Source: Saccoglossus kowalevskii (Eukaryota; Hemichordata; Enteropneusta; Harrimaniidae). Taken from it: a DNA stretch of 20,403 nucleotides. Numbering within the stretch: the stretch's first letter is position 1; the number at the start of each line of letters is the position of its first letter. Below are positions 1 through 14,781 of this stretch, piece after piece. Where the stretch lies: assembly GCF_000003605.2 (NCBI RefSeq), contig NW_003139345.1, positions 1-20,403 of the forward strand, written 5' to 3'. Position numbers and translations under genes: made by a program. Under the pieces are notes generated by a model. It saw nothing but the letters and a program-made list of their open reading frames with translations, was not told the origin of the DNA and made no database searches.

Positions 1-1119
1 CTCTTGTACACACACAGTATACCAACTACCATAGCTTGGTAGCCTATTATGAAGAGAATCTTATTATTATGTAACCTAATAATCGAAATCGAGGCATGTA
101 ATCTCATTATTGACCTTGACATGATCTTGATCTATTGACCTGTTTGTGGCGGAGTTATGATGTACGATGGCATTAAACATGCAGGGTCTCACAGTCTGTA
201 GAGTAAAGCAGACAACAATTCAATGTATTGTCATCCATTAGCTGACCTATGGCCTGACCTTTGACCTATATTTTAGGCCAGATGCATTGTAGGCCTAAGA
301 CATGACCTAATAAACACACACATCAATGTTTAGTGATCATATCTTAATTATTTGTGAAGTTATACTGTAAGTAGTCCAGTGCCTCCTTTGACTCATCTGC
401 ATAAATACCAATCAAAAACGACCTGGAGCCCTGTGACCATACCCACTTTGAACACCCATAACACAACTTTGCTGCCAGCTTTTAACATTACAACAGGGCT
501 TAAACTTTTCCCAAGATGACCCTCTAGGTGAAAATATTTTCAAACCTTTTAAGTACTGGGGGTGCAACGAAATCATATTTCTAGGCCACTTGTGGAAATT
601 GGCTCCTTGACTATATGGTTGGTTGTTGACAAATGCTGAACAGACCACGCCTCCAACTGTGCCGTGCTTTCGGGTAAACCGTTAATTATTCGTAAATGGA
701 GTCAATTTGTGTAGTTGATTTATTCTGCAGACATAGGTAAAGCTTTGGCAAAATTTGAAAGAGCAACTAATATTCTTCAACCTGGTATCTTTTATAGATT
801 TTTTTTTTCATTCTGTTCGTCTGTTTTTTTCCAGTTTAAAAATATAAGCTGGCTGGAGCATTCATCCCTTGTCTATTTCTTACACTAGATACCAGCCGAT
901 ACCCCCCCCCCCTCGCTCAAAGCTAATGCGTACAGTTGATCATAGTTCATGTGCTCCCTGTGGTTTAGCAAGTACAATTAACCTCTATTTTGAGCAGGAA
1001 AATAAATAACAGACTCTGTCTAAGCAAAAGATTTACAAAGGATAAGTACAGCAAAAAAAGAGTTTTAAAATAATAACAAGATATATATAAAAATATTATA
1101 TAAAAAAACGTAACTAGTA
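1..1119. other. Non-genic 5' flank
   Basis: No coding region can be supported. The stretch holds a cluster of TGACCT hexamers (111-308, listed separately), a run of twelve C near 901-912, and AT-rich low-complexity sequence from about 1060. A 78-codon minus-strand open frame at 412-648 has no recognisable domain or splice context and is not called as a gene. Confidence 0.6.
111..308 (-). promoter_or_regulatory. Cluster of nuclear-receptor half-sites with a perfect DR1
   Basis: Six TGACCT hexamers (AGGTCA on the minus strand) lie in one orientation at 111, 136, 243, 255, 262 and 303. The copies at 255-260 and 262-267 are separated by one base, which is an exact DR1 arrangement (the RXR/PPAR/HNF4 type). 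The copy at 111-119 reads TCAAGGTCA on the minus strand, the extended half-site bound by NR5A and ERR receptors. The hexamers and spacings are seen directly; receptor binding is inferred. No neighbouring gene is visible to the left, so the target is unknown. The cluster could instead be a degraded tandem repeat. Confidence 0.35.
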
Positions 1120-2560
1120 TTTAAATGTTAAATAAATCTTTTTGTTGTGTAAATATAATTGGCAAGTTCTATAATTATGCCAGGATCTTTGCTTGAGAGT
1201 ATATATGTGAACTGTATATTTTTATTTTTGGATGAAAGTAGTGTCATAATTTTTGGATGAAGTTTTCCCTGTGTGTGTTATATTTTGGGCAATTCAACAG
1301 AAAATGTTCTTCATCTTCAATACATATTGTATGTATTGCATTTAGTCATTTGTATTGTATAGTATTGTGTTGTGTTTGTTCTAGGTATGCCTGTTTTGTA
1401 AGATTATCATCTGGGAGTTCCTTTATATGCAACCAGTAATTAATAGCTTGAACTTTTGCACTGAGTAGTAGTGGATAATGACCCACCTCTGCTCTTGATG
1501 CTAAGTTATAGGATTTTGTATTTACTTGTAAGATTTGCAGAATTTAATATTGATGTTTTGTCTCATTTAGCATTGTCCTGAATGCCCTGCAAGTCCAGGG
1601 ATAGCCCATAATTCTGAGCCATAAAATAAAATTGGTTTTTATGTAAATGTTAAATAGTTTCATTTTTAGTTTTATGTAAATTGATTTCCCAACTTTACCT
1701 GCTAAATTTGACATGGCCTCAGCAAAACTCCTATTTGATTTTATTGTGATTCGTAGTTATGTATAACTGTTTGTTGTTTGAATGTTATCATTTCCAAAAC
1801 TGAATTGGTATTTTTTGTTTATTTTTAATGTGTTTCTGAATCAGAGTTTTTAATACAAAAATTTGATCAGTTGTTCTGTGTTTTCTGAAGCCGGTCTAGT
1901 TGTTTTTGAGTATTATATTTTCTTCTATAAAACTGTTTATGCATTTAATATTTATGATGGAACAGAAGACGTTGCCAATACAACTTGAACTGATATTCCT
2001 CTGTAATTTTGAGGGTCTAAGTTGTCTCCTTTTTTTTATAAAAATGAGTGATGCAACTATAATTCCAAATATCTGGGAAAACTGAGCTACTCAAAACTAA
2101 GTTAAACAATTTGGTAAGTGAATTAATTAGATAGTTTGAGCTGTATTTTAATAGTTCTAAACAGAAATCGTCCAAGCCTGGTGATTTTTGGATTTTAGCA
2201 TTTTCAGTGCTCCACTATTTTTGTCCACCAATAACCTTATCCATGTGATCATGTACCATCATTTTGTCTTCATGCTCTGGTAATTCTTTCATTATATTCC
2301 TGGAAACTATTATCATCTTTTTCATTGTTTAGTGTTGCATAATATTCCATCCATTTAGTTGCTGAAATTAGATTATCACTATTTTGATCTGTATTTTTCA
2401 TACGGTTAATAATTTTCCAAAATTCTTTTTTAATTTCGTTGTTGAAATGTTCTGAGTATATTAAGATAATTTTCTTGGATTTGGTTTTTCCTTTGTTTTA
2501 TAAGTTTCTTAAATCTTTTCTTTTCAGAATAAAAACTTTGTCTTTGTTGCATACCAGATG
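1120..2560 (-). mobile_element. Decayed non-LTR retrotransposon (LINE), RT and C-terminal remnant
   Basis: Reading the minus strand and allowing frameshifts and stops gives the landmarks of a LINE ORF2 in correct order. They are a pre-RT linker with FWKII...W-M-E-Y-Y (about 2440 down to 2330), the RT start with SPGLDDF (about 2191-2162), DPQNYRGIS (about 2025-1990), TGFRKHRTTDQI (about 1895-1860), and a C-terminal DEEHFLLNCPKY segment (about 1317-1280). A closing helical tail reads K-D-P-G-I-I-I-E-L-A-N-Y-I (about 1190-1145). The polymerase core with the YxDD catalytic motif should lie near 1800-1740; sequence jumps there to a later part of the protein, so it appears deleted. The endonuclease domain is absent. 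There are several in-frame stops, for example TAG in place of a glutamine codon near 1887. The element is dead. A CR1/L2-type clade is plausible but not assigned. Confidence 0.8.
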
Positions 2561-2744
2561 GAAATTTATTTATCAACTTTGCACAAGCCATTAGATGACA
2601 TTCATTCTGGTTGCATTGTTTATCACCATTGGGGATTCTTTTTTTGTTTGTTTTTGTGAATAACTTTATTGGGATTGATTTTATTAAAAATACCTGAAGC
2701 TGAACTTTCTAGTAGCTAAATAAATTTCTGGGATGCCATATTCA

Positions 2745-5700
2745 CATTATTATAACATAAATACAGCACTGCATATCATAAATACGACACTGTATAACAT
2801 AACGATGAGTCTACATATCATAAATATGGGACTGCATAACATAACGATGAGTCTACATATCATAAATATGGGACTGCATAACATAACGATGGGACTACAT
2901 AACATAACGATGGGACTACATAACATAAATATGGGACTGCATAACATAACGATGAGTCTACATATAAATATGGGACTGCATAACATAACGATGAGTCTAC
3001 ATAACATAAATATGGGACTGCATAACATAACGATGGGTCTACATAACATAAATATGGGACTGCATAACATAACGATGAGTCTACATATCATAAATATGGG
3101 ACTGCATAACATAACGATGAGTCTACATAACATAAATATGGGACTGCATAACATAACGATGGGTCTACATATCATAAATGTGGGACTGTATAACATAACG
3201 ATGAGTCTACATATCATAAATATGGGTCTGCATAACACAACGATGGGTCTACATAACATAAATATGGGACTGCACAACATAACGATGGGTCTACATAACA
3301 TAAATATGGGACTGCATAACATAACGATGGGTTTACATAACATAAATATGGGACTGCATAATATAACGATGAGTCTACATATCATAAATATGGGACTGCA
3401 TAACATAACGATGAGTCTACATAACATAAATATGGGACTGCATAACATAACGATGAGTCTACATAACATAAATATGGGACTGTATAACACAACGATGGGT
3501 CTACATAACATAAATATGGGACTGCATAACATAATGATGAGTCTACATATCATAAATATGGGACTGCATAACATAACGATGAGTCTACATATCATAAATA
3601 TGGGACTGCATAACATAACGATGGGTCTACATAACATAAATATGGGACTGCATAACATAACGATGAGTCTACATATCATAAATATGGGACTGCATAACAT
3701 ATCGATGGGTTTACATAACATAAATATGGGACTGCATAACATAACGATGAGTCTACATATCATAAATACGGGACTGCATAACATAACGATGGGACTACAT
3801 AACATAAATATGGCACTGCATAACATAACGATGGGTTTACATAACATAAATACGACACTATTTAACATAATGATGAGTCTACATATCATAAATACGACAC
3901 TGCATAACATAAATATGGGACTGCATAACATAACGATGGGTCTACATAACATAAATATGGGACTGCATAACACAACGATGGGTCTGCATAACATAAATAC
4001 GGGACTGCATAACACAACGATGGGACTACATAACATAAATATGGGACTGCATAACATAACGATGGGTCTACATAACATAAATACGACACTATTTAACATA
4101 ATGATGAGTCTACATATCATAAATACGACACTGCATAACATAAATATGGGACTGCATAACATAACGATGAGTCTACATATCATAAATACGACACTGCATA
4201 ACATAAATATGGGACTACATACATAAATATAGGACTGCATAACATAACGATGAGTCTACATAACATAAATACGACACTGTTTAACATAACGATGGGTTTA
4301 CATAACATAAATACGGGACTGCATAACATAACGATGGGACTACATACATAAATATAGGACTGCATAACATAACGATGAGTCTACATAACATAAATACGAC
4401 ACTGTTTAACATAACGATGGGTTTACATAACATAAATACGACACTGCATAACATAAATACGGGACTGCATAACATAACGATGAGTCTACATAACATAAAT
4501 ACGGGACTGCATAACATAAATACGGGATTGCATAATATAACGATGAGTCTACATAACATAAATACGACACTGCATAACATAAATATGGGACTGCATAACA
4601 TAACGATGGGTCTACATACATAAATACGGGACTGCATAACATAACGATGAGTCTACATAACATAAATACGACACTGCATAACATAAATATGGGACTGCAT
4701 AACATAACGATGAGTCTACATATCATAAATACGGGACTGCATAACATAACGATGAGTCTACATAACATAAATACGGGACTGCATAACATAACGATGGGTC
4801 TACATACATAAATACGGGACTGCATAACATAACGATGAGTCTACATAACATAAATACGACACTGCATAACATAAATATGGGACTGCATAACATAACGATG
4901 AGTCTACATATCATAAATACGGGACTGCATAACATAACGATGAGTTTACATAACATAAATACGGGACTGCATAACATAACGATGAGTCTACATAACATAA
5001 ATACGACACTGCATAACATAAATATGGGACTGCATAACATAACGATGAGTCTACATATCATAAATACGGGACTGCATAACATAACGATGAGTCTACATAA
5101 CATAAATATAGGACTGCATAACATAACGATGAGTCTACATGTCATAAATACGGGACTGCATAACATAACGATGGGTCTACATAACATAAATACGGGACTG
5201 CATAACACAACGATGGGTCTACATATCATAAATATGGGACTGCATAACATAACGATGGGTCTATATATCATAAATATAGGACTGCATAACATAACGATGG
5301 GTCTACATATCATAAATATGGGACTGCATAACATAACGATGGGTCTACATACATAAATACGGGACTGCATATCATAACGATGAGTCTACATAACATAAAT
5401 ACGACACTGCATAACATAAATATGGGACTGCATAACATAACGATGAGTCTACATAACATAAATACGACACTGCATAACATAAATATAGGACTGCATAATA
5501 TAACGATGAGTCTACATATCATAAATACGGGACTGCATAACATAACGATGAGTCTACATAACATAAATATAGGACTGCATAATATAACGATGAGTCTACA
5601 TATCATAAATACGGGACTGCATAACATAACGATGGGTCTACATAACATAAATACGGGACTGCATAACACAACGATGGGTCTACATATCATAAATATGGGA

Positions 5701-5976
5701 CTGCATAACATAACGATGGGTCTACATATCATAAATATAGGACTGCATAACATAACGATGGGTCTACATATCATAAATATGGGACTGCATAACATAACGA
5801 TGGGTCTACATACATAAATATGGGACTGCATAACATAACGATGAGTCTACATAACATAAATATGGGACTGCATAACATAAATACGGGACTGAATAACATA
5901 ACGATGGGTCTACATATCATATATATTGGACTGCATAACATAATAACAGGACCACATATCATAATAACAAAACATA
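2745..5976. repeat. Minisatellite array of 21-bp units (42-bp dimers)
   Basis: About 150 tandem copies of a 21-bp unit of the form ATG-GG(A/T)-CT(G/A)-CAT-AAC-ATA-A(A/C)(T/G). In much of the array, units ending in ACG alternate with units ending in AAT, giving a 42-bp dimer. Translated, each unit is M-(G/S)-L-H-(N/I)-I-(T/N), and frames stay open on both strands because 21 is divisible by 3. Units left of about 3760 are nearly all ATATGGG. From about 3769 ATACGGG and ATACGAC variants dominate. A 1-bp deletion variant (CTACATACATAAAT) recurs at 4215, 4340, 4612, 4800, 5345 and 5806 and shifts the frame each time. Both ends (2745-2800 and 5905-5976) are degenerate, as expected when unequal exchange homogenises the interior. 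No unique spacers are present. Confidence 0.97.
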
Positions 5977-6994
5977 AGGTAAGACAGTTACGGCGTTCCA
6001 TATACGCAATTTTAGCGGGGTATCTAGTTCCGGGCGTGGCGTATATATTCAGAGAGAAATAACGAAATCATCTGTTAGTTATCATTGTACGATAAATAGG
6101 TTATTCAAATAAGTTATTATAAATAATCACCAGCAATTGATTTAAAAATACACTTGAATATAATTAAACGAACAAGAAATGCTTTTTGATTTGTATAGCG
6201 CCACATACGATGAGATCTAGACATGTAGCCCGAAGACTGGGCGTTGCAGTATAATAATAGAGTGTGTAGATGACGTGTACGAGTCTGCCACACCCTGAGC
6301 GCGCAAACAGTGTGCAGCAGCTTCATGTCAGTGTTCCGCGCTTGTATCAGCCGACTTCAAGGTAAACTATTGTAATTCAAGTAGTTATCATAAGGTATCA
6401 ATGTGAACTTGTTCTGAAAGTTTTTCATGTCGATTAATATCATTGAATTTCATTTTCTGACGAACTTTCGCATGAAAAGTAGTGCTTGAGTCACAATCAT
6501 TGCCAACTCAATTTTCAGAGACGGTTTGCAAAAATGTCCGTACTCTAAAATGTCCTTACACCAAATATGAGTCTATTTCTGTCATCATTTGTTTAGCTTA
6601 ACTGCATTTTAATGATTATTTTGTTGTAGTATCATCTACAAAACAATTAGTCAAGATCCCTTTGTGTTTATAACTATTTTCTTTTGTCGGAGGTGAGCCA
6701 AATTAGGACTTTGGCTGGGAAATCTGTAGATAGAAATCGGTATATATGTCTCTCTAATTATGCAAATAATATGCACGGTTGGAAGTTGGTTGATCTCTAA
6801 ACGATGTTGACAGAACATTAGACATGTACTTTACTGTAGTAGGTATATATTACAATTACGTGTTCACACTGTTTTCCCCCTACTAGCGACACAGTTACTA
6901 ACATTATAAGGGAGTACATGACATCGACAACTCTGATACAACGAGAGCATAAAATAAAGCCAACTGCGAAATCTATTAATGCCATGTCAACTGG
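5977..6994 (+). promoter_or_regulatory. Probable NLR promoter and 5' leader region
   Basis: This 1-kb stretch separates the minisatellite from the NLR start codon. A possible non-coding leader exon ends at 6361 with a good donor (TTCAAG then GTAAAC). A pyrimidine-rich acceptor, TTTTCCCCCTACTAG, ends at 6886, so the first coding exon could run 6887-7182 after a 525-bp intron. Alternatively, transcription could start nearer the gene from a TATA-like TTATAAGGG at 6903-6911. An exact octamer ATGCAAAT (POU-factor type) lies at 6760-6767. None of these is proven, and the two start models are mutually exclusive. Confidence 0.35.
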
Positions 6995-6998
6995 ATGA
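6918..6998 (+). other. Upstream ORF overlapping the NLR start codon
   Basis: An ATG at 6918 opens a 26-codon frame with a second in-frame ATG at 6984. It ends at TGA 6996-6998, which overlaps the NLR ATG (6995-6997) as ATGA. If the mRNA begins upstream of 6918, ribosomes would terminate exactly on the receptor's first start codon. That codon has T at -3, a weak context, so reinitiation or leaky scanning to the next in-frame methionines (codon 9 at 7019, codon 27 at 7073) is plausible. The arrangement is seen directly; the effect on translation is inferred. Confidence 0.4.
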
Positions 6999-9900
6999 AT
7001 GATAAAGAATCAAATAAAATGTCACTGCTTAATTTCACGGCGCCAGACGGTACAGTCTTTGGGCTACGGCATATGGTAATATATCCAACTGTACTTTTAG
7101 CTTTAAGAACCGCGCATGCGCAATTCTTACTTCAATGTGGTGACGTTGAGGAAAATCCAGGACCTCTCCCATCTGCTGAAACGTGAGTACCACATGTTTA
7201 TTCTATTCTATTTTGTTCACAGAACTGGTACGTAACACTGCTCCAATATATCACTAAATATATTCAAGATCTGTCACTTAACTACCTTAATTGACCGGCT
7301 CCACGTCCTAAGAAAAAAAATATAAAACTAATTCATCTCATCACGGTCAGTTGGCGCTGTGTAGCGCATGAGTATCCCACTTGTAAATACTATTATACTT
7401 TCACGTGAATTATACAAATTATCTTTGAACACTATTTTATTTAAAAGTACGAAGGTACCTGTAGTTTCTGAGTTAAATTAATTTTAACCAATTTTCAATT
7501 CAAAATGGCCATCAGAGTAGAAAACCATAAAGTCATTAGTTTTCATGGAAACAATCGCGTGTAATTGACGGAACCTTTCACTCTGCAGAATGTAGTTGCT
7601 GATATTTTCGTTATTTGGAGGAGACAACTACTGTCTGTTTGTAAAATGGCGAAAATAATAATTCTTCCCCAATAATCCATCTGTTGATTGATTCAGTACT
7701 TGTTCGCATTTCTTAAAGGGCGGTAGTCGTCGCGCCACGCATGCGCCAGATATATGTGTCTCATATAAACAATGATTGCGACTTCGGCTGTTGCGCAGAG
7801 ACGTTGCCAAGCTTTAATTAGGTATTTGTAGGTGAATGGATGGTATCGAAGGAGTCACCGGCGGTAATTAGTGCAAGTCGCGCCCAGGTCAAACTTCATA
7901 CTTGTGATTTTCATTAGAAAAGCGCATTGGATTATGGGAAAATCAATGTTTATCAACAAAAAAGTCGCACATGCGCGGCGCGACGACTACCGCCCTTTAA
8001 ATTCTGAATGTATTTAAATTCGAAAAATACTATTGTTAATTTCAAATATTATATTTTTTCAGCCAACTAGATTATATCACCAAAATCATAACCAGCCGGG
8101 ATATTCTAGTATCATCAATCGTCATTGACGGATACATACTTAACTATCTGGTACAACAAGGAGCATTAGATATATCTGAGTACAATCGAATTCATGTTCC
8201 AGGGTCCCCTGAACCTGATGAAGTGAAGCGTCTACTGGACGTGTTAATTACAAAGGACAAGCGAGCGTACGACGTCTTTGTGACGTCATTGCAACAACCG
8301 TACCCAGTTATTGCGCAAATGATGAACATTCCAAATAGACCCGAAATGCCAAACCTTTCTAACCGTGAGTATGAATATTTTTCAAGATATTGTGTCTTGT
8401 GGTATCACTGGTTTCCTAAATAATTGAAAAGAATTAGAAGACCTCAATAGAAGCGTTATTTGTCTGTGCCCCTCCAATGGTGTTTTATTTTCTGTTTTCA
8501 TTGCGTCTAATGTCCCACTCATTTATGTAAATATTATATTTGGTCCATTAAGATAGAATGCAACTCGGTAGCAAACAGTTATGTCATTTTATTTATTGAA
8601 GTAGTAGAAATAACACATCCAATTATAGATCGTGTAACATCAGTCCTATGGGGGAATGTACAAGGCCAAGACAACAAAACAAATGGCTGACTACAATCTA
8701 TAAAACTATGGGTAACTAAAACAATGTACAAAGCAGAGTGAAAATAGCATGCTTTGTCTATTTCATAATATACTATGTTTACTGAGGCAAAGTTATATCT
8801 AAAAATTGTGTCCAGTGACATCTATATAATGTGTCTTAAATGTGACAAGAAATAATTTCAGGCATTGAAATTAAGGTCTGATATACTCCGCTAAGCTCTG
8901 TATTTGTCAGGTAATGCCTTCATTTATTACGTAGTTATTTTATTCGTACACAAAATTTTGTTATATGTGCTAAAATATGTCCACACCCCACAAAATTGTT
9001 TTCTCTCTCCCTCAAATACACGCTTTCGTCGAAGACAAACTATTATTTGCCAAAATATTACACAGCATGTATGAGTCACGACGAAGCGCTAGTTTAAATT
9101 GGTGAAAGAAAGGACAATCAAGGTTGTAGTCGACCATTAATGATAATGTTGTTTTTGGAAGTTTGTATTGTATTCTAGATGACGAACGCCTACACAATGT
9201 GAACAACATTGCCTTCACCTATCCAGGCCATTTTGACGTCAAACATAGTAATAGCATGTTTATTCTAAATTGTTTCCAGCAGAAAACAAATCACAGAACT
9301 TAAATGCTTATTGTGACGACGAAACAATAGCAATTGGAAACAAATCAAGTGAAGACGATACTGACGATGTGGTAGACAAATACTTTGACGATCCTGAACA
9401 AAAAGTACAGAAGAAAAAGAGCTTTTCAAACTACGTGTATAATTTTAAACGGCTGTTTTTTGGCAGCAGTGAGTACAATCAGTTCAATTAAATGTGCATA
9501 CAATCTTAATCCAATATGGCGGGTGACACGTGGGAAGCAGGGTGTGCTCACTCTATTCGAAACACCTGATATCACTTCGTGTATACCATGAGTTCATATA
9601 TATCCTTCTAGTACTGATTTGATTATGTTATGTAATGTAATGTACTTGACTTGATTTTGAATGTATGTGAGCAGTATGGGGATTAGTACCCTGTTGACAA
9701 CAGCCAAAGGAATTTAGATTTCAGCGCTCATCAATTTACATGACATTTAGATGATATGCAGAACTTGCCATGCACTCGGCTTGAGGGTCAGACCGTCATG
9801 GTTTGAATGAACATTGTAAAACTAGCACAGTTATTTTTTGTATCTAACAGCTCTTTATCTCATTCATTCAATGTTTATTGTTCTTTCCCACAGGCACAGG

Positions 9901-12900
9901 TGCTGCAGCACCCAACCCCCAGATAGTTGAGGACTGTAAAGCAGATTTAAAGCAATTGTACGTTAAAATGTGTACCTGGAGAAGACCAGCACCTTGGTAT
10001 GCATCACAATTAGGTTTTCCCTGTACAGACTTTAAAGTGTATAGGTTAGTCCAGTCACCATCAGAATCAGAATCTACTAGCAAAATTAAAATTAAGATTA
10101 CCATTGATGAGATTTTTGCATCACATGAAACCTGCAAAGACCCTAAACATGTTATTGTGTATGAGGACACTGATGCATACAGTCCTGTACTGTGTATTAA
10201 ACTCGCGTATGATTGGGCGATCAATAACCCAGATTGCCCAATCAAAAACAAGATACCATTTCTGGTTGACGGCAGTCGACCCTGTGGCAATGCTATGACA
10301 GTCCTTTTTGATTTCATGCACAGAAAGTTCCAATGGAACTTGGCGAAACTCCATGAATTGTGGGACTACATTACTCACCATCCACGCGATTTTATGTTTC
10401 TCGTGTATGGTTTAAAGGACGAAGAAAAGCGCCCACAGAGAAAACTCACCAAAAAATTATGCAAGGACAAAGAAGTGAAAAATTGTTATATTCTTTTGTG
10501 CTGCCAACTAGTGGCGACCAATGTCAGAGCTAATCTGATAAAAGCAAATGACAGTGAATTACTTGTGTCTAAACTTTGCATTGAACAGCATAAAGAATAT
10601 ATTGCTAGACATTTTAAAAATAAGGAGGAAGTGAATCATCTATCAGCCATTATTGCTAATGATGATCGATTGATTGAATTTTGCAAAACTTCACTTAATA
10701 TTCTTCTTATTTGTACATTATGGAAGGAGATGAAAAACATTCCCAATAAGCCCGCAGATTTTTATAAAGCAATCATTTTGTGTATGATGAGACGAGCATC
10801 TAGAATGAAAAATATTGACATGACAGCAACAAATATAAAAGATATCCCACCGGCTTATAACAAATGTTTATTGACTGTTGGTAAAATGTGCTTTATTAGT
10901 AAGAATAATATACAGCTAACCAAAAAGATGGTTAGGGATATATTTGGTGATTTTCTGGTTTTAGAAATAGGATTGCTTCGACAACAAACTGAAATATTAG
11001 GGAGTGAACATGAAGTTGAGTTTGAGCTATTTGATTCTGAGTTTGGTAACTTTCTTGCTGCATATTATTTATCTGATTTAATGATGAATGCAGATCAAGT
11101 GAACGATATCCTTGTTAAGTTGTTAAGTTCCAATAGGCATGCAGTCGTGGAGTATACAGTGGCATTGATGGAGAAAAGTGCCAAGCACTTTTTCACCAAA
11201 CTTGTTCAACATTTAGGAAACAGAGTTGTTTCATTTCATGCAGAAGACACGATCATCAAGCTCTATTTCCGATGTTTGTGCGAGTGTTCTAATCCAAAAA
11301 CCTTTAGTAAGCTTGTTGCCCCAGTTATACCCAAAAATCTAGTTGTTGCAGATTGGCATCCTTCAGAGGTCAATGGTTTAGTTTATGTATTGCATGAGCA
11401 AAAGTGCAATCTGAGTAATATAAGAATTGGGTTAGTGAAGGGTACAATGTGGGAATCCAACAAAGGAACTGTGTCAGGTCTATTTCGGGCCCTTCATGTA
11501 AACAAATCAATACATTCTCTATGTATAAAGATTGACCCTGTTTTTAAAGATCACTTCGAAATGTTTTGTGATATGCTGAAAACTAATAAAAGTATAACCA
11601 AGTTGCAATTATGCATTGTTAGCACTGACCTTATATTGCCGTCATTGATGACATGTCTGTGTGATGGTCTGCGTGCAAGTAGTATAGCAGTACTTGATAT
11701 TTACCTAAAAGGGATCGCCCCAAGCAGAATAAGCTTATTAGCAGAGGCACTGAAATCTATGGATAAATTACGAGATTTTGCATGCTTATTAGATGTTCAT
11801 GAGAGGCATTATGGTGAAATGTTACGACTCTTGTGTTCTTGTGGTCTGCAACAAGTCCGTCAGCTAGAGTCATTAGATTTGTCCATGTGTTCATTTGGTG
11901 AACCCCCTGGCATTCCAAGAGATCCGTCAACTGTCATTGCACTGGCAACTACCATACAGAATGCTGAATTTCTGAGAAAGCTTACATTACAGGGGTGCAT
12001 GATATGTGATGTAGGGGCGGAAACTATGGCTGATGCATTCCGTGGGAATAAAAGTCTAGAAGAAGTAAACATATCTAATAATTATTTTGGCCCAAAAGCA
12101 GTAAAGGTTCTGTGTGATGCCCTTAATGGAAAACCTAAGCTGAAAAGGCTACAAATCAGTTATTACATCCCCTTAGACCATGGAGGTACAAGTGGATTGG
12201 GGAGTTTAATCAAATGTTCACCGTCATTAGAGTATTTAGATCTTCGACCTGTGGATATTATGCTGAAGGAAGCCTCTCTAACTTCTAAGCATATGAATCT
12301 CCGGGAGCGTGCCATAGAAAACAGCAGAGACGCAGAGGATATAGCCATGGCCTTCTCAAAAAATAAAACTCTGAAGGAATTTTATATTGGCCAAGCATTT
12401 AAGGATAATCTGCTGACTACGTTGGTGAGCGGATTGTGTAAAAGTAAAAGCATTCCCACCTTAGATATCAGTCGTTGTGGGCTCAGTGATAAAATGGGAA
12501 TGGAACTGATGATGGCAACGTATCAATGTGAGTCACTTTCTGCGATGAATCTCAGTTATAATAGCCTAACTGTAACTGCTATTAACGCATTATTAATAGC
12601 GGCCAATGGGATGCCAAATCTAGTAGATATAGACATCAGTCATAATAAGATCAAGTCAGTTGGAGCAAATAATATTATTGTGGCACTAAAAAAAATGACC
12701 AAATTGAAACGTTTGAACATGATGGACAATGGAATTAGTGCTGATGGGTTGGTGAATCTTCCCAATAATCTGCCAACACATTCTAATTTACAATACTTAA
12801 ATTTGAGTTACAATCACATAGGTAATATCGGTGCCAAGATGATACTAGGAAGTCTGAAAACCAACACCGCACTTCAGGAGTTGGACATTCGCCAATGCAA

Positions 12901-13423
12901 GTTAACAGGTCAGACGCTTGCTGACTTCTCTCGAATGATAAATGACAATACGAATGTAACTCTAAAGTATGTCTTACTCTATCCTGGAGAATTCTCGGTG
13001 TTGTTAGTTGACGAGGTCATCTCAACAATTGAGAGATGTAACAGTACACTGGTAAAAGTGCGATTGTCTCCCGACATTCTGGAGTTACAAAATAAAGAAT
13101 GGGCCACCTACTGCAAGTTTGAAAAACCTTTAGAACATCACATTCTTACTCAAAGGTGGGTCTTGGATGATGATATTAGAGGACAAGTTGGTAAAAACGA
13201 CTTACCTCGGAGCGTTTATAGTAGCATTTATGGTGAAGCTAGTGACCAGAGTCAAGGTGGATTGATACATTGTCAGGATGGAGACAACAATGTTAGCAAC
13301 AAAGATTATCAGGAAGATGATCAGGAATTTGAAAATTCTGATAGCAAATATCTGAGTAACTCGCATGATGCTAACGAACAAATCCATGATTATGCTCAGC
13401 TATATCACGGATATCAAGAGTAG
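6995..13423 (+). CDS. NOD-like receptor: 2A-like leader, CARD, degenerate NACHT, LRRs
   Basis: Join of 6995-7182, 8063-8364, 9280-9468 and 9894-13423; 4209 nt, 1402 residues plus TAG. All three introns have GTGAGTAY donors and pyrimidine-AG acceptors, and the phases match. An in-frame TAA at 6977 limits the start; Met1, Met9 and Met27 are all possible. Order: signal-like hydrophobic stretch 27-42; 2A core D50-P57; CARD-like domain about 64-150; acidic then basic linker 165-227; NACHT about 311-530; HD2 block FELFDSEFGNFLAAYYLSDL about 603-622; about 14 leucine-rich repeats of ribonuclease-inhibitor type, about 766-1247; acidic tail with tyrosine motifs 1316-1402. NLRs are cytosolic innate sensors that oligomerise through NACHT and signal through death-fold domains. 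Here the Walker A and B motifs are lost, so an ATP-driven switch is unlikely and a scaffold, decoy or regulatory role is possible. The frame is intact, so it is not an obvious pseudogene. The ligand is unknown. Confidence 0.93.
7100..7165 (+). other. 2A-like ribosome-skipping peptide (NLR residues 36-57)
   Basis: Exon 1 encodes QFLLQCGDVEENPGP, an exact match to the 2A consensus D-(V/I)-E-x-N-P-G-P. In this family the ribosome fails to form the bond between the last Gly and Pro, yielding two proteins from one frame. The skip site is Gly56 (7160-7162) / Pro57 (7163-7165). A release would leave a 56-residue leader and a receptor beginning with Pro57 just before the CARD. Residues 27-42 (MVIYPTVLLALRTAHA) have the hydrophobic core and small terminal residues of a secretory signal. 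The unskipped protein might therefore enter the secretory route. 2A-like leaders on NLRs are documented in sea urchin. Skipping efficiency is not known here. Confidence 0.9.
7111..7122 (+). promoter_or_regulatory. NRF1-type palindrome inside coding exon 1
   Basis: CGCGCATGCGCA is a full match to the NRF1 consensus YGCGCAYGCGCR. It lies within the codons for Leu-Arg-Thr-Ala-His-Ala-Gln, just before the 2A core. Binding is inferred only; the match could be chance. Confidence 0.2.
7183..8062 (+). other. NLR intron 1
   Basis: Donor GTGAGTACC directly follows the 2A exon (two bases into codon 63), and the acceptor is ATATTTTTTCAG at 8051-8062. The intron carries a TTAA-flanked MITE at 7713-8000, listed separately. 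The rest is AT-rich with no further exon that I can support. Confidence 0.85.
7713..8000. mobile_element. MITE copy 1, TTAA-flanked, in NLR intron 1
   Basis: A 280-bp element (7717-7996) lies between TTAA at 7713-7716 and TTAA at 7997-8000. Terminal inverted repeats begin AGGGCGGTAGTCGTCGCGCC and extend to about 31 bp with a few mismatches. There is no coding capacity. A related copy in the same orientation lies at 14519-14781, and internal stretches such as TCTCATATAAACAA and TTTAATTAGGTA are shared. A TTAA target duplication suggests piggyBac-type mobilisation; the family is not identified. Confidence 0.85.
8063..8364 (+). other. NLR exon 2: CARD-like death-fold domain
   Basis: Encodes residues 63-164. 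After an N-terminal helix, the block around 110-140 reads VKRLLDVLITKDKRAYDVFV, which is the helix 4-5 signature of CARD domains (LLDxLxxKxxRAxxxF). It follows G-A-L-D-I-S-E-Y, matching the usual start of helix 3. The domain sits almost alone in one exon, as is common for death-fold modules. CARDs recruit adaptors or caspases by homotypic contact; the partner cannot be told. A DEATH or DED assignment is less likely. Confidence 0.8.
8365..9279 (+). other. NLR intron 2
   Basis: Donor GTGAGTATG at 8365 and acceptor TTTCCAG ending at 9279. It is AT-rich, with no repeat or extra exon that I can support. Minus-strand open frames at 8579-8821 and 9012-9218 have no recognisable content. Confidence 0.75.
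9277..9282 (+). other. NAGNAG tandem splice acceptor of exon 3
   Basis: The acceptor reads CAGCAG. Using the first AG starts the exon at 9280 and gives Pro-Glu-Asn-Lys; using the second starts it at 9283 and gives Gln-Asn-Lys. Both keep the frame, so the products differ by one residue (Pro-Glu versus Gln) at the CARD-linker junction. Confidence 0.6.
9280..9468 (+). other. NLR exon 3: charged linker
   Basis: Encodes residues 164-227 between the CARD and NACHT. It opens with an acidic stretch rich in Asp, Glu and Ser (SSEDDTDDVVDKYFDD) and changes to a basic, aromatic end (KKKSFSNYVYNFKRLFF). No domain is recognised. The change from acidic to basic suggests a flexible, disordered hinge; the basic-aromatic end could contact membrane or nucleic acid, which is speculation. 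The donor GTGAGTAC follows at 9469. Confidence 0.7.
9469..9893 (+). other. NLR intron 3
   Basis: A 425-bp intron with donor GTGAGTACA and acceptor TTCTTTCCCACAG. A second in-frame AG six bases downstream (9898-9899) could remove two residues. No repeats or other features are seen. Confidence 0.8.
10148..10807 (+). other. Degenerate NACHT domain of the NLR
   Basis: Residues about 312-531. The fold landmarks are present: a KLAYDWA helix after the P-loop (10199-10219), SELLVSKLCIEQHKEYI like the usual L-x-V-x-G-F-S-x-E-x-x-x-x-Y-I block, and FCKTSLNILLICTLW like the usual LCxxPLxLxxLCxLW block. The nucleotide-binding motifs are not. Where Walker A (GxxGxGK[ST]) should precede KLAYDWA, the sequence is EDTDAYSPV (10163-10189), with no glycine and no lysine. 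Walker B reads FLVYGLKDEE (10397-10426), with Tyr in place of the key Asp of LLLDGLDE. The sensor-like TSR is TNVR. ATP binding and hydrolysis are therefore probably lost. Confidence 0.8.
11510..12955 (+). other. Leucine-rich repeats of the NLR
   Basis: Residues about 766-1247. The clearest repeats are exactly 28 residues, of ribonuclease-inhibitor type: L-x-x-L-x-L-x-x-(N/C)-x-(L/I)-x-x-x-(G/A). Examples start at LRKLTL, LEEVNI, IPTLDI, LSAMNL, LVDIDI, LKRLNM, LQYLNL and LQELDI, the last six consecutive. About 14 can be counted, the first few degenerate. All lie in one exon, unlike the one-repeat-per-exon arrangement of vertebrate NLRP genes. This part normally senses ligand or holds the receptor inactive. 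Confidence 0.85.
13145..13420 (+). other. Acidic C-terminal tail with YxxI/YxxL motifs
   Basis: Residues about 1311-1402, after the last LRR. It is rich in Asp, Glu, Asn, Gln and Ser and looks disordered. It contains SVYSSI (Tyr1335), which fits the ITIM pattern [SIVL]xYxx[ILV], and DYAQL (Tyr1393), a YxxL motif with a preceding acid that could also serve as an LC3-interacting or sorting motif. The motifs are short and could be chance. Confidence 0.4.
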
Positions 13424-14518: not shown

Positions 14519-14781
14519 TTAAGGGCGATAGTCGTCGCGCCACGTATGCGCAAAATATATGGTCTCATATAAACAAAGATGGCGACTTTGACTAATGCGC
14601 AGATCAACGAGTGCAAACTGAGACGTTACCAAGTTTTAATTAGGTAATTTTATGTGATTGGAAGGTATCGAAGGATTCGCCGGCGATAATTGTGAGTTCC
14701 ATTAAAAGAGCGCATTCGGAAAATCAAGGTTTATCAACCCAAATGCCACACGTGCGCAGCGCGACGACCACCGCCCTTTAA
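14519..14781. mobile_element. MITE copy 2, TTAA-flanked, downstream of the NLR
   Basis: A 255-bp element (14523-14777) between TTAA at 14519-14522 and 14778-14781. It aligns with copy 1 (7717-7996) along its whole length in the same orientation, including the ends (GGGCGATAGTCGTCGCGCC at left, GCGACGACCACCGCCCT at right). The left end has lost the first A of the repeat. Internal indels separate the copies, so they are not a very recent pair. It is non-coding. Confidence 0.85.

Follow-up and report, generated by a model that had tools for sequence, protein, structure and literature searches.

A putative N-terminal 2A leader on a CARD-LRR receptor gene with a degenerate NACHT region, and a predicted 2A-led caspase-like gene, in the genome of Saccoglossus kowalevskii

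Results

The window, by which we mean the whole stretch of DNA analysed (contig G000:C3059, 20,403 bases), contains on the forward strand a gene whose four exons join as 6995-7182, 8063-8364, 9280-9468 and 9894-13423, giving 1402 codons and one stop at 13423. All three introns of this model, which was built from the sequence alone, are GT-AG with matching phases. Exon 1 (6995..7182) encodes a 62-codon leader with a 2A sequence, in a frame that fits the splice at the donor GTGAGT at 7183. Exon 2 (8063..8364) encodes a CARD (Pfam, 2.6e-9; nearest PDB match the RAIDD CARD, 2.5e-5), exon 3 (9280..9468) is an in-phase linker bounded by GT-AG introns, and exon 4 (9894..13423) encodes, according to Pfam and PDB matches, a NACHT-like region and leucine-rich repeats and ends in the stop. 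The repeats match Pfam LRR_6 (3.7e-16), and their nearest PDB match is of the ribonuclease inhibitor type (1.4e-18); the best-matched stretch, for which coordinates were set by hand, lies at 12533..12904 and comprises the best LRR_8 and LRR_4 matches with LRR_6 inside. The order of CARD, NACHT-like region and ribonuclease-inhibitor-type LRRs is that of receptors of the NOD1/NOD2 type.

The NACHT match of exon 4 is weak (5.6e-4, 20.2 bits, below the cut-off of 26.7) and starts only at profile position 19. Homology links the region to an NLR encoded elsewhere in the genome (27% identity over 258 amino acids, E 1.6e-15). This is the best of the matches at four other loci (C3634, C290, C1938 and C3184); the genome search with this exon gave six matches in all, the exon itself included. 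Alignment with the four paralogs, all of which keep Walker A (GDAGVGKS, GDPGIGKS, GAAAMGKS and GDVGVGKS), places EDTDAYSP of the window receptor at this position (10163..10186, forward strand). At the Walker B position (10397..10420, forward strand) the receptor has FLVYGLKD, as compared with LILDGVNE, IILDGIDE and LIIDGWDE in three paralogs, the fragment used for the fourth not covering this motif. Hence, unlike NOD1/NOD2-type receptors, the window receptor does not conserve Walker A and B. The original prediction had called the gene an NLR, and this holds for the death-fold effector domain (the CARD) and the C-terminal LRRs, both of which are present, but not for a NACHT domain with Walker A and B, as both motifs are replaced and the Pfam score is below the cut-off. 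The protein is thus better described as a CARD-LRR receptor with a degenerate NACHT region, and may possibly be a pseudo-NTPase. Loss of both Walker motifs together with a sub-threshold NACHT match could also point to a decaying gene, whose leader would have no consequence; however, 1402 codons free of stops and frameshifts, three GT-AG introns, and a CARD and LRRs above their cut-offs make decay very improbable in our estimate.

Within the interval 6000-13423 the ratio of observed to expected CpG stays at about 1.0-1.3 as far as exon 2, beginning with the upstream flank. Intron 2 has 0.66, intron 3 and exon 4 have about 0.5, and exon 3 (1.22) departs from this fall; this profile could mean that transcription starts near exon 1 and that the gene body is methylated. 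A MITE-like repeat with 45-nt inverted ends (84%), beginning TTAAAGGGCGGTAGTCG, occupies 7713-8000 in intron 1, and a second MITE-like copy lies downstream of the gene at 14521-14781, with a related copy in L032 (80% over 299 nt). Just 5' of the gene, a long repetitive stretch at 2724-6000 is open on both strands, with a HNITMGLHNINMGL-like translation.

The translation of 6995-7182 is MNDKESNKMSLLNFTAPDGTVFGLRHMVIYPTVLLALRTAHAQFLLQCGDVEENPGPLPSAE. Its residues 50-57 (7142..7165, forward strand) form the core DVEENPGP, with the predicted break between Gly56 and Pro57, and the tail of the leader reads AQFLLQCG-DVEENPGP-LPSAE. Both parts of a 2A (StopGo) sequence are found, namely a core of the form (D/G/C/N)(V/I)ExNPGP and a permissive L-rich hexapeptide upstream of it, FLLQCG (residues 44-49, 7124..7141, forward strand), which in a comparison made by eye fits the LLLLSG-like motifs 2/6 of PMC12846837, a class whose activity has been assayed. 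The position of the 2A at the N-terminus of an NLR-like protein is that of an SpNLR2A-type leader. A perfect 2A core in exon 1, directly before the CARD exon, and candidate starts at Met1, Met9 and Met27 had been predicted originally; the translation bears out the coordinates and frame of the core and the three methionines, and the in-phase donor and the CARD match confirm what follows the core. Across exons 1 and 2 the next methionine after these three is at position 149, so that without exon 1, or some other first exon, the CARD would have no start codon of its own. At position -3 the context is best for Met9 (A), with T for Met1 and C for Met27. An upstream frame, read by eye at 6918-6998 with ATG codons at 6918 and 6984, ends in a TGA (6996-6998) that overlaps the ATG of Met1, and could affect the choice of start if it is part of the mRNA. 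The codon-use score of exon 1 (0.126) is like those of exon 2 (0.086) and exon 3 (0.137); among 280 overlapping non-coding windows without a stop, 11 score as high.

The DNA pattern for DVExNPGP has one match in the window as opposed to none in 100 shuffles; base composition alone would predict 3e-6 matches for the window and 0.083 for the genome (572 Mb in 4,830 contigs). The core DVEENPGP is not a product of chance. Searching the genome by pattern gave 30 DVExNPGP sites and, among the matches listed, 30 DIExNPGP sites, in each case against none for the backward-pattern control, while a core with G replacing D gave no site and its control one. With 60 sites and no control match, D-type cores are strongly enriched in the genome, for which repeats are partly responsible. 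As a check on the DVExNPGP count, the commonest 23-mer searched alone gave 16 sites, identical to the 16 within the 30. The pattern search in the viral_contigs collection returned 60 stretches of which none was confirmed, and that in the phage collection returned no match.

Reading frames at all 30 DVExNPGP sites, for 14 of which 2.7-10 kb of sequence was inspected, assign one site to the window receptor, one to a caspase-like gene on C1837, 17 to a repeated short frame, one to C93 and ten to retrotransposon-like sequence. By repetition, similarity or eye, 28 of the 30 look derived from mobile elements. The short frame, MRMILMPSG-DVETNPGP-GNILRPD and variants, is present in 17 copies, 16 of which share one exact 23-mer, the copy on C4555 being a variant. 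Pfam bears out the assignment at both loci whose reverse transcriptase frames were searched, C3223 (reverse transcriptase 9.2e-28, with an endonuclease frame at 5.4e-7) and C4443 (reverse transcriptase 2.8e-33); the other retrotransposon-like assignments are by frame similarity or eye, some of them from incomplete flanking sequence, and Pfam searches with frames from L034 and L035 gave no family and from L041 a match below the cut-off. Half of the DIExNPGP sites (15/30) were opened as 301-base pieces, the remaining 15 sharing a core 23-mer with an opened one; no obvious host gene was seen at the opened sites, in pieces too short to exclude one. A repeated family (L057, L058, L055 and L066, on C942, C1007, C126 and C1148) has a short hydrophobic leader followed by DIE(S/N/T)NPGP and, after the core, a frame with an (N/T)VxQGSxxxL-like stretch, which is reminiscent of the cysteine-protease motifs on some transposons. 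The site on C93 was considered as a third leader gene and set aside: its short frame, MRLILLLSG-DVESNPGP-ISK, is followed by no obvious gene and is similar to the copies on C942 and C1007. Odon and colleagues are said to have described 2A sequences in non-LTR retrotransposons in 2013, and the same core lies in retrotransposon-like sequence of this genome; unlike exon 1 of the receptor, the element copies adjoin endonuclease/reverse transcriptase or coiled-coil-like frames.

The abundance of such copies raises the question of whether exon 1 descends from a mobile element with a 2A that landed upstream of the receptor, a remnant of little or no use, with the real first exon elsewhere. The element-like character of 28 of the 30 sites, with Pfam-confirmed reverse transcriptase at two, and the MITE-like repeat in intron 1 would agree with this. 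However, exon 1 found itself alone in the genome, both by DNA search and by protein search at E up to 1, although the latter scored one candidate and omitted a 19-residue match to the C1837 leader, so that weak relatives can be missed. Moreover, with the core left aside, the receptor leader has no significant similarity to any of five element leaders (shuffle fractions 0.057-0.83), and the exon has a good donor, the right phase and coding-like codon use. We therefore consider a remnant unlikely, and do not claim that exon 1 derives from an element of the same genome, given that neither a DNA or protein relative nor significant leader similarity was found.

The C1837 gene (G000:C1837:232922-236889, reverse strand; L033) is modelled with six in-phase exons, all introns GT-AG, and encodes 467 amino acids. 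The protein begins with a hydrophobic leader and its core, MGVSTKANRIEYFSQHNSMSSNGGIHFQLDSSLMTRIVVILCLLRCG-DVESNPGP, followed by a spacer and then by Peptidase_C14 (Pfam 1e-5, 25.8 bits, cut-off 21.4, searched as the open frame that contains exon 6). FYFSGH and LDTCF presumably represent the expected catalytic His and Cys sites. Two upstream frames matched no Pfam family above cut-off, and a PDB search with the caspase-like exon gave three matches (E 0.44-0.95), none of them a caspase; the caspase assignment is thus a putative one, made from the Pfam match. Outside the core, homology between the receptor and C1837 leaders is not claimed (shuffle fraction 0.10). From their predicted products, two different death- or immunity-type genes of one genome seem to carry the 2A-leader layout, and this second host-like case counts in favour of the reading preferred below.

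This layout is no rule for the NACHT family in the genome. A PF05729 search gave at least 12 NACHT matches that exceed the cut-off. In 11 of these 12 the match begins at profile position 2-5, two contain an internal stop, and the weak NACHT of the window is not among them; of the 14 control genomes, 11 also have PF05729 matches, and three have them above the cut-off. None of the contigs of these 12 carries one of the 60 D(V/I)ExNPGP sites, so that among the 13 NACHT-type loci seen (the 12 PF05729 matches and the window) one, that of the window, shares its contig with a canonical core. The closest paralog, C3634, has a homologous CARD (30% over 86 amino acids, 2.9e-11; Pfam 9.6e-10), and NPGP is absent from the six frames of bases 1-10000 of its contig, which include the CARD exon and about 7 kb before it.

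The other half of the receptor leader is a hydrophobic stretch (residues 27-42, MVIYPTVLLALRTAHA, 7073..7120, forward strand), in which residues 27-37 have a mean Kyte-Doolittle hydropathy of 2.22 and are followed by a possible cleavage site, AHA|Q. The leader of the C1837 gene is more hydrophobic (2.63), and so is the urchin leader (3.19), in which the hydrophobic signal runs into the 2A. AHA|Q is an allowed signal-peptidase site. With a cleavage-site matrix it scores 4.54, but when the leader was shuffled 20000 times, 3436 of the shuffles did as well, and by the same matrix 5 out of 40 starts at internal Met codons come out above the leader. The original prediction that residues 27-42 look like a secretory signal is therefore weakly supported: the stretch is hydrophobic, but with so many shuffles reaching an equal score we do not claim a signal peptide. 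On the urchin leader the best site of the matrix is VET|NPG. This matches the SignalP site in PMC4981915, which indicates that the matrix is not useless.

It may thus be that the 2A works while the leader is no signal, being either removed to leave a clean N-terminus at Pro57 beside the CARD or released as a free peptide of 48-56 residues, with the receptor entirely cytosolic. The weak signal score and a proline inside the hydrophobic stretch agree with this, and since an L-rich 2A itself needs hydrophobic residues beside the core, hydrophobicity alone proves no signal. Pointing the other way are the permitted cleavage site and a layout that resembles the assayed sea-urchin leaders. We hold a leader of this kind to be less probable than one that can direct part of the product to the secretory route, yet it is the strongest of the alternatives; action of the receptor leader as a secretory signal is plausible.

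Discussion

The reading that we prefer, with a probability of about 0.5, is that the coding sequence of a CARD-LRR receptor with a degenerate NACHT region truly begins in exon 1, that the 2A there works, and that a minority of the product bears the leader and is possibly bound for the endoplasmic reticulum. The sequence itself gives the core, its context, the in-phase exons and the want of a further start codon ahead of the CARD; that the gene is transcribed, the occurrence and extent of skipping, the action of the signal and the location of the products are our inferences. Ribosome skipping at the receptor 2A is likely. At the Gly-Pro bond most ribosomes would let go of the leader, which runs from Met1 or Met9 to Gly56, and then make a separate receptor, which would start at Pro57, six codons before the CARD-exon junction, and be free in the cytosol. 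A minority would join both parts, and the retained hydrophobic leader could take the joined product to the endoplasmic reticulum and beyond, as reporters have shown for a leader from sea urchin. One mRNA could in this way give both a leader-bearing and a free receptor, and targeting of the receptor to two compartments is plausible. With the end of the hydrophobic stretch 19 residues ahead of Gly56 and a ribosome exit tunnel of 30-40 residues (PMC2978324), residues 28-37 would not yet have emerged from the ribosome at the time Gly56 occupies the P site. By this measure, the choice between skipping and joining would precede signal binding.

The dual-targeting model originates with Roulston et al. 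(2016; PMC4981915), and the original prediction was right that 2A-led NLRs are known from sea urchin: in that paper, 14 of 87 S. purpuratus NLR entries have an N-terminal 2A (another count gives about 35%, 85/241), and 12 of the 14 leaders are predicted to be signals. One urchin leader was assayed, with about 80% skipping in vitro, and a skip-dead leader-reporter in HeLa cells went mainly to the Golgi and partly to the medium (PMC4981915). The leader described here is like SpNLR2A in having D(V/I)ExNPGP at the N-terminus of an NLR-like protein with a hydrophobic stretch ahead of it. However, it is 48-56 amino acids long, as opposed to the 26 given for SpNLR2A, and its hydrophobic stretch is separate from FLLQCG; in addition, SpNLR2A proteins are described as DEATH-domain NLRs (PMC4981915), whereas the window receptor has a CARD, has lost its Walker motifs and is the one among 13 NACHT-type loci seen to have a core. 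PMC12846837 describes L-rich upstream motifs as ending in (A/S/C)G and accompanying D at the first position of the core. FLLQCG-DVEENPGP, L-rich, with such an ending and with D at p12, is by eye like viral D-type StopGo motifs 2/6, but those lie within polyproteins and the receptor site is N-terminal in a cellular gene (PMC12846837). The same text describes 2A recoding as rare in cellular genes and cites the sea-urchin NLRs as an example, and NLRs are likewise named as cellular 2A cases in PMC11512398. In the titles and abstracts of the open-licence literature we found no 2A-led caspase and no 2A-led NLR beyond sea urchin. While the principle is already known from sea urchin, what is new here is a 2A leader on a receptor with lost Walker motifs, together with a caspase-like gene that seems to have such a leader; neither these lost motifs and this second gene nor the element-like look of the other 28 DVExNPGP sites had been noticed in the original prediction.

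On a broader view, N-terminal 2A leaders might be a movable module from mobile elements, placed independently on innate-immune and cell-death genes, by which death machinery would be split between cytosol and secretory route, or given a clean N-terminus, by translational choice. We offer this tentatively and think it rather doubtful. Having lost its Walker motifs, the receptor would need to signal by some means other than the usual ATP switch. With two different leaders, the genome would permit a direct test of whether 2A partitions death-domain proteins between compartments, and the caspase-like companion gene on C1837 is the most interesting lead in this respect. If these readings are true, a 2A gene outside the expanded urchin NLR family and a caspase-like one would make the 2A trick more general.
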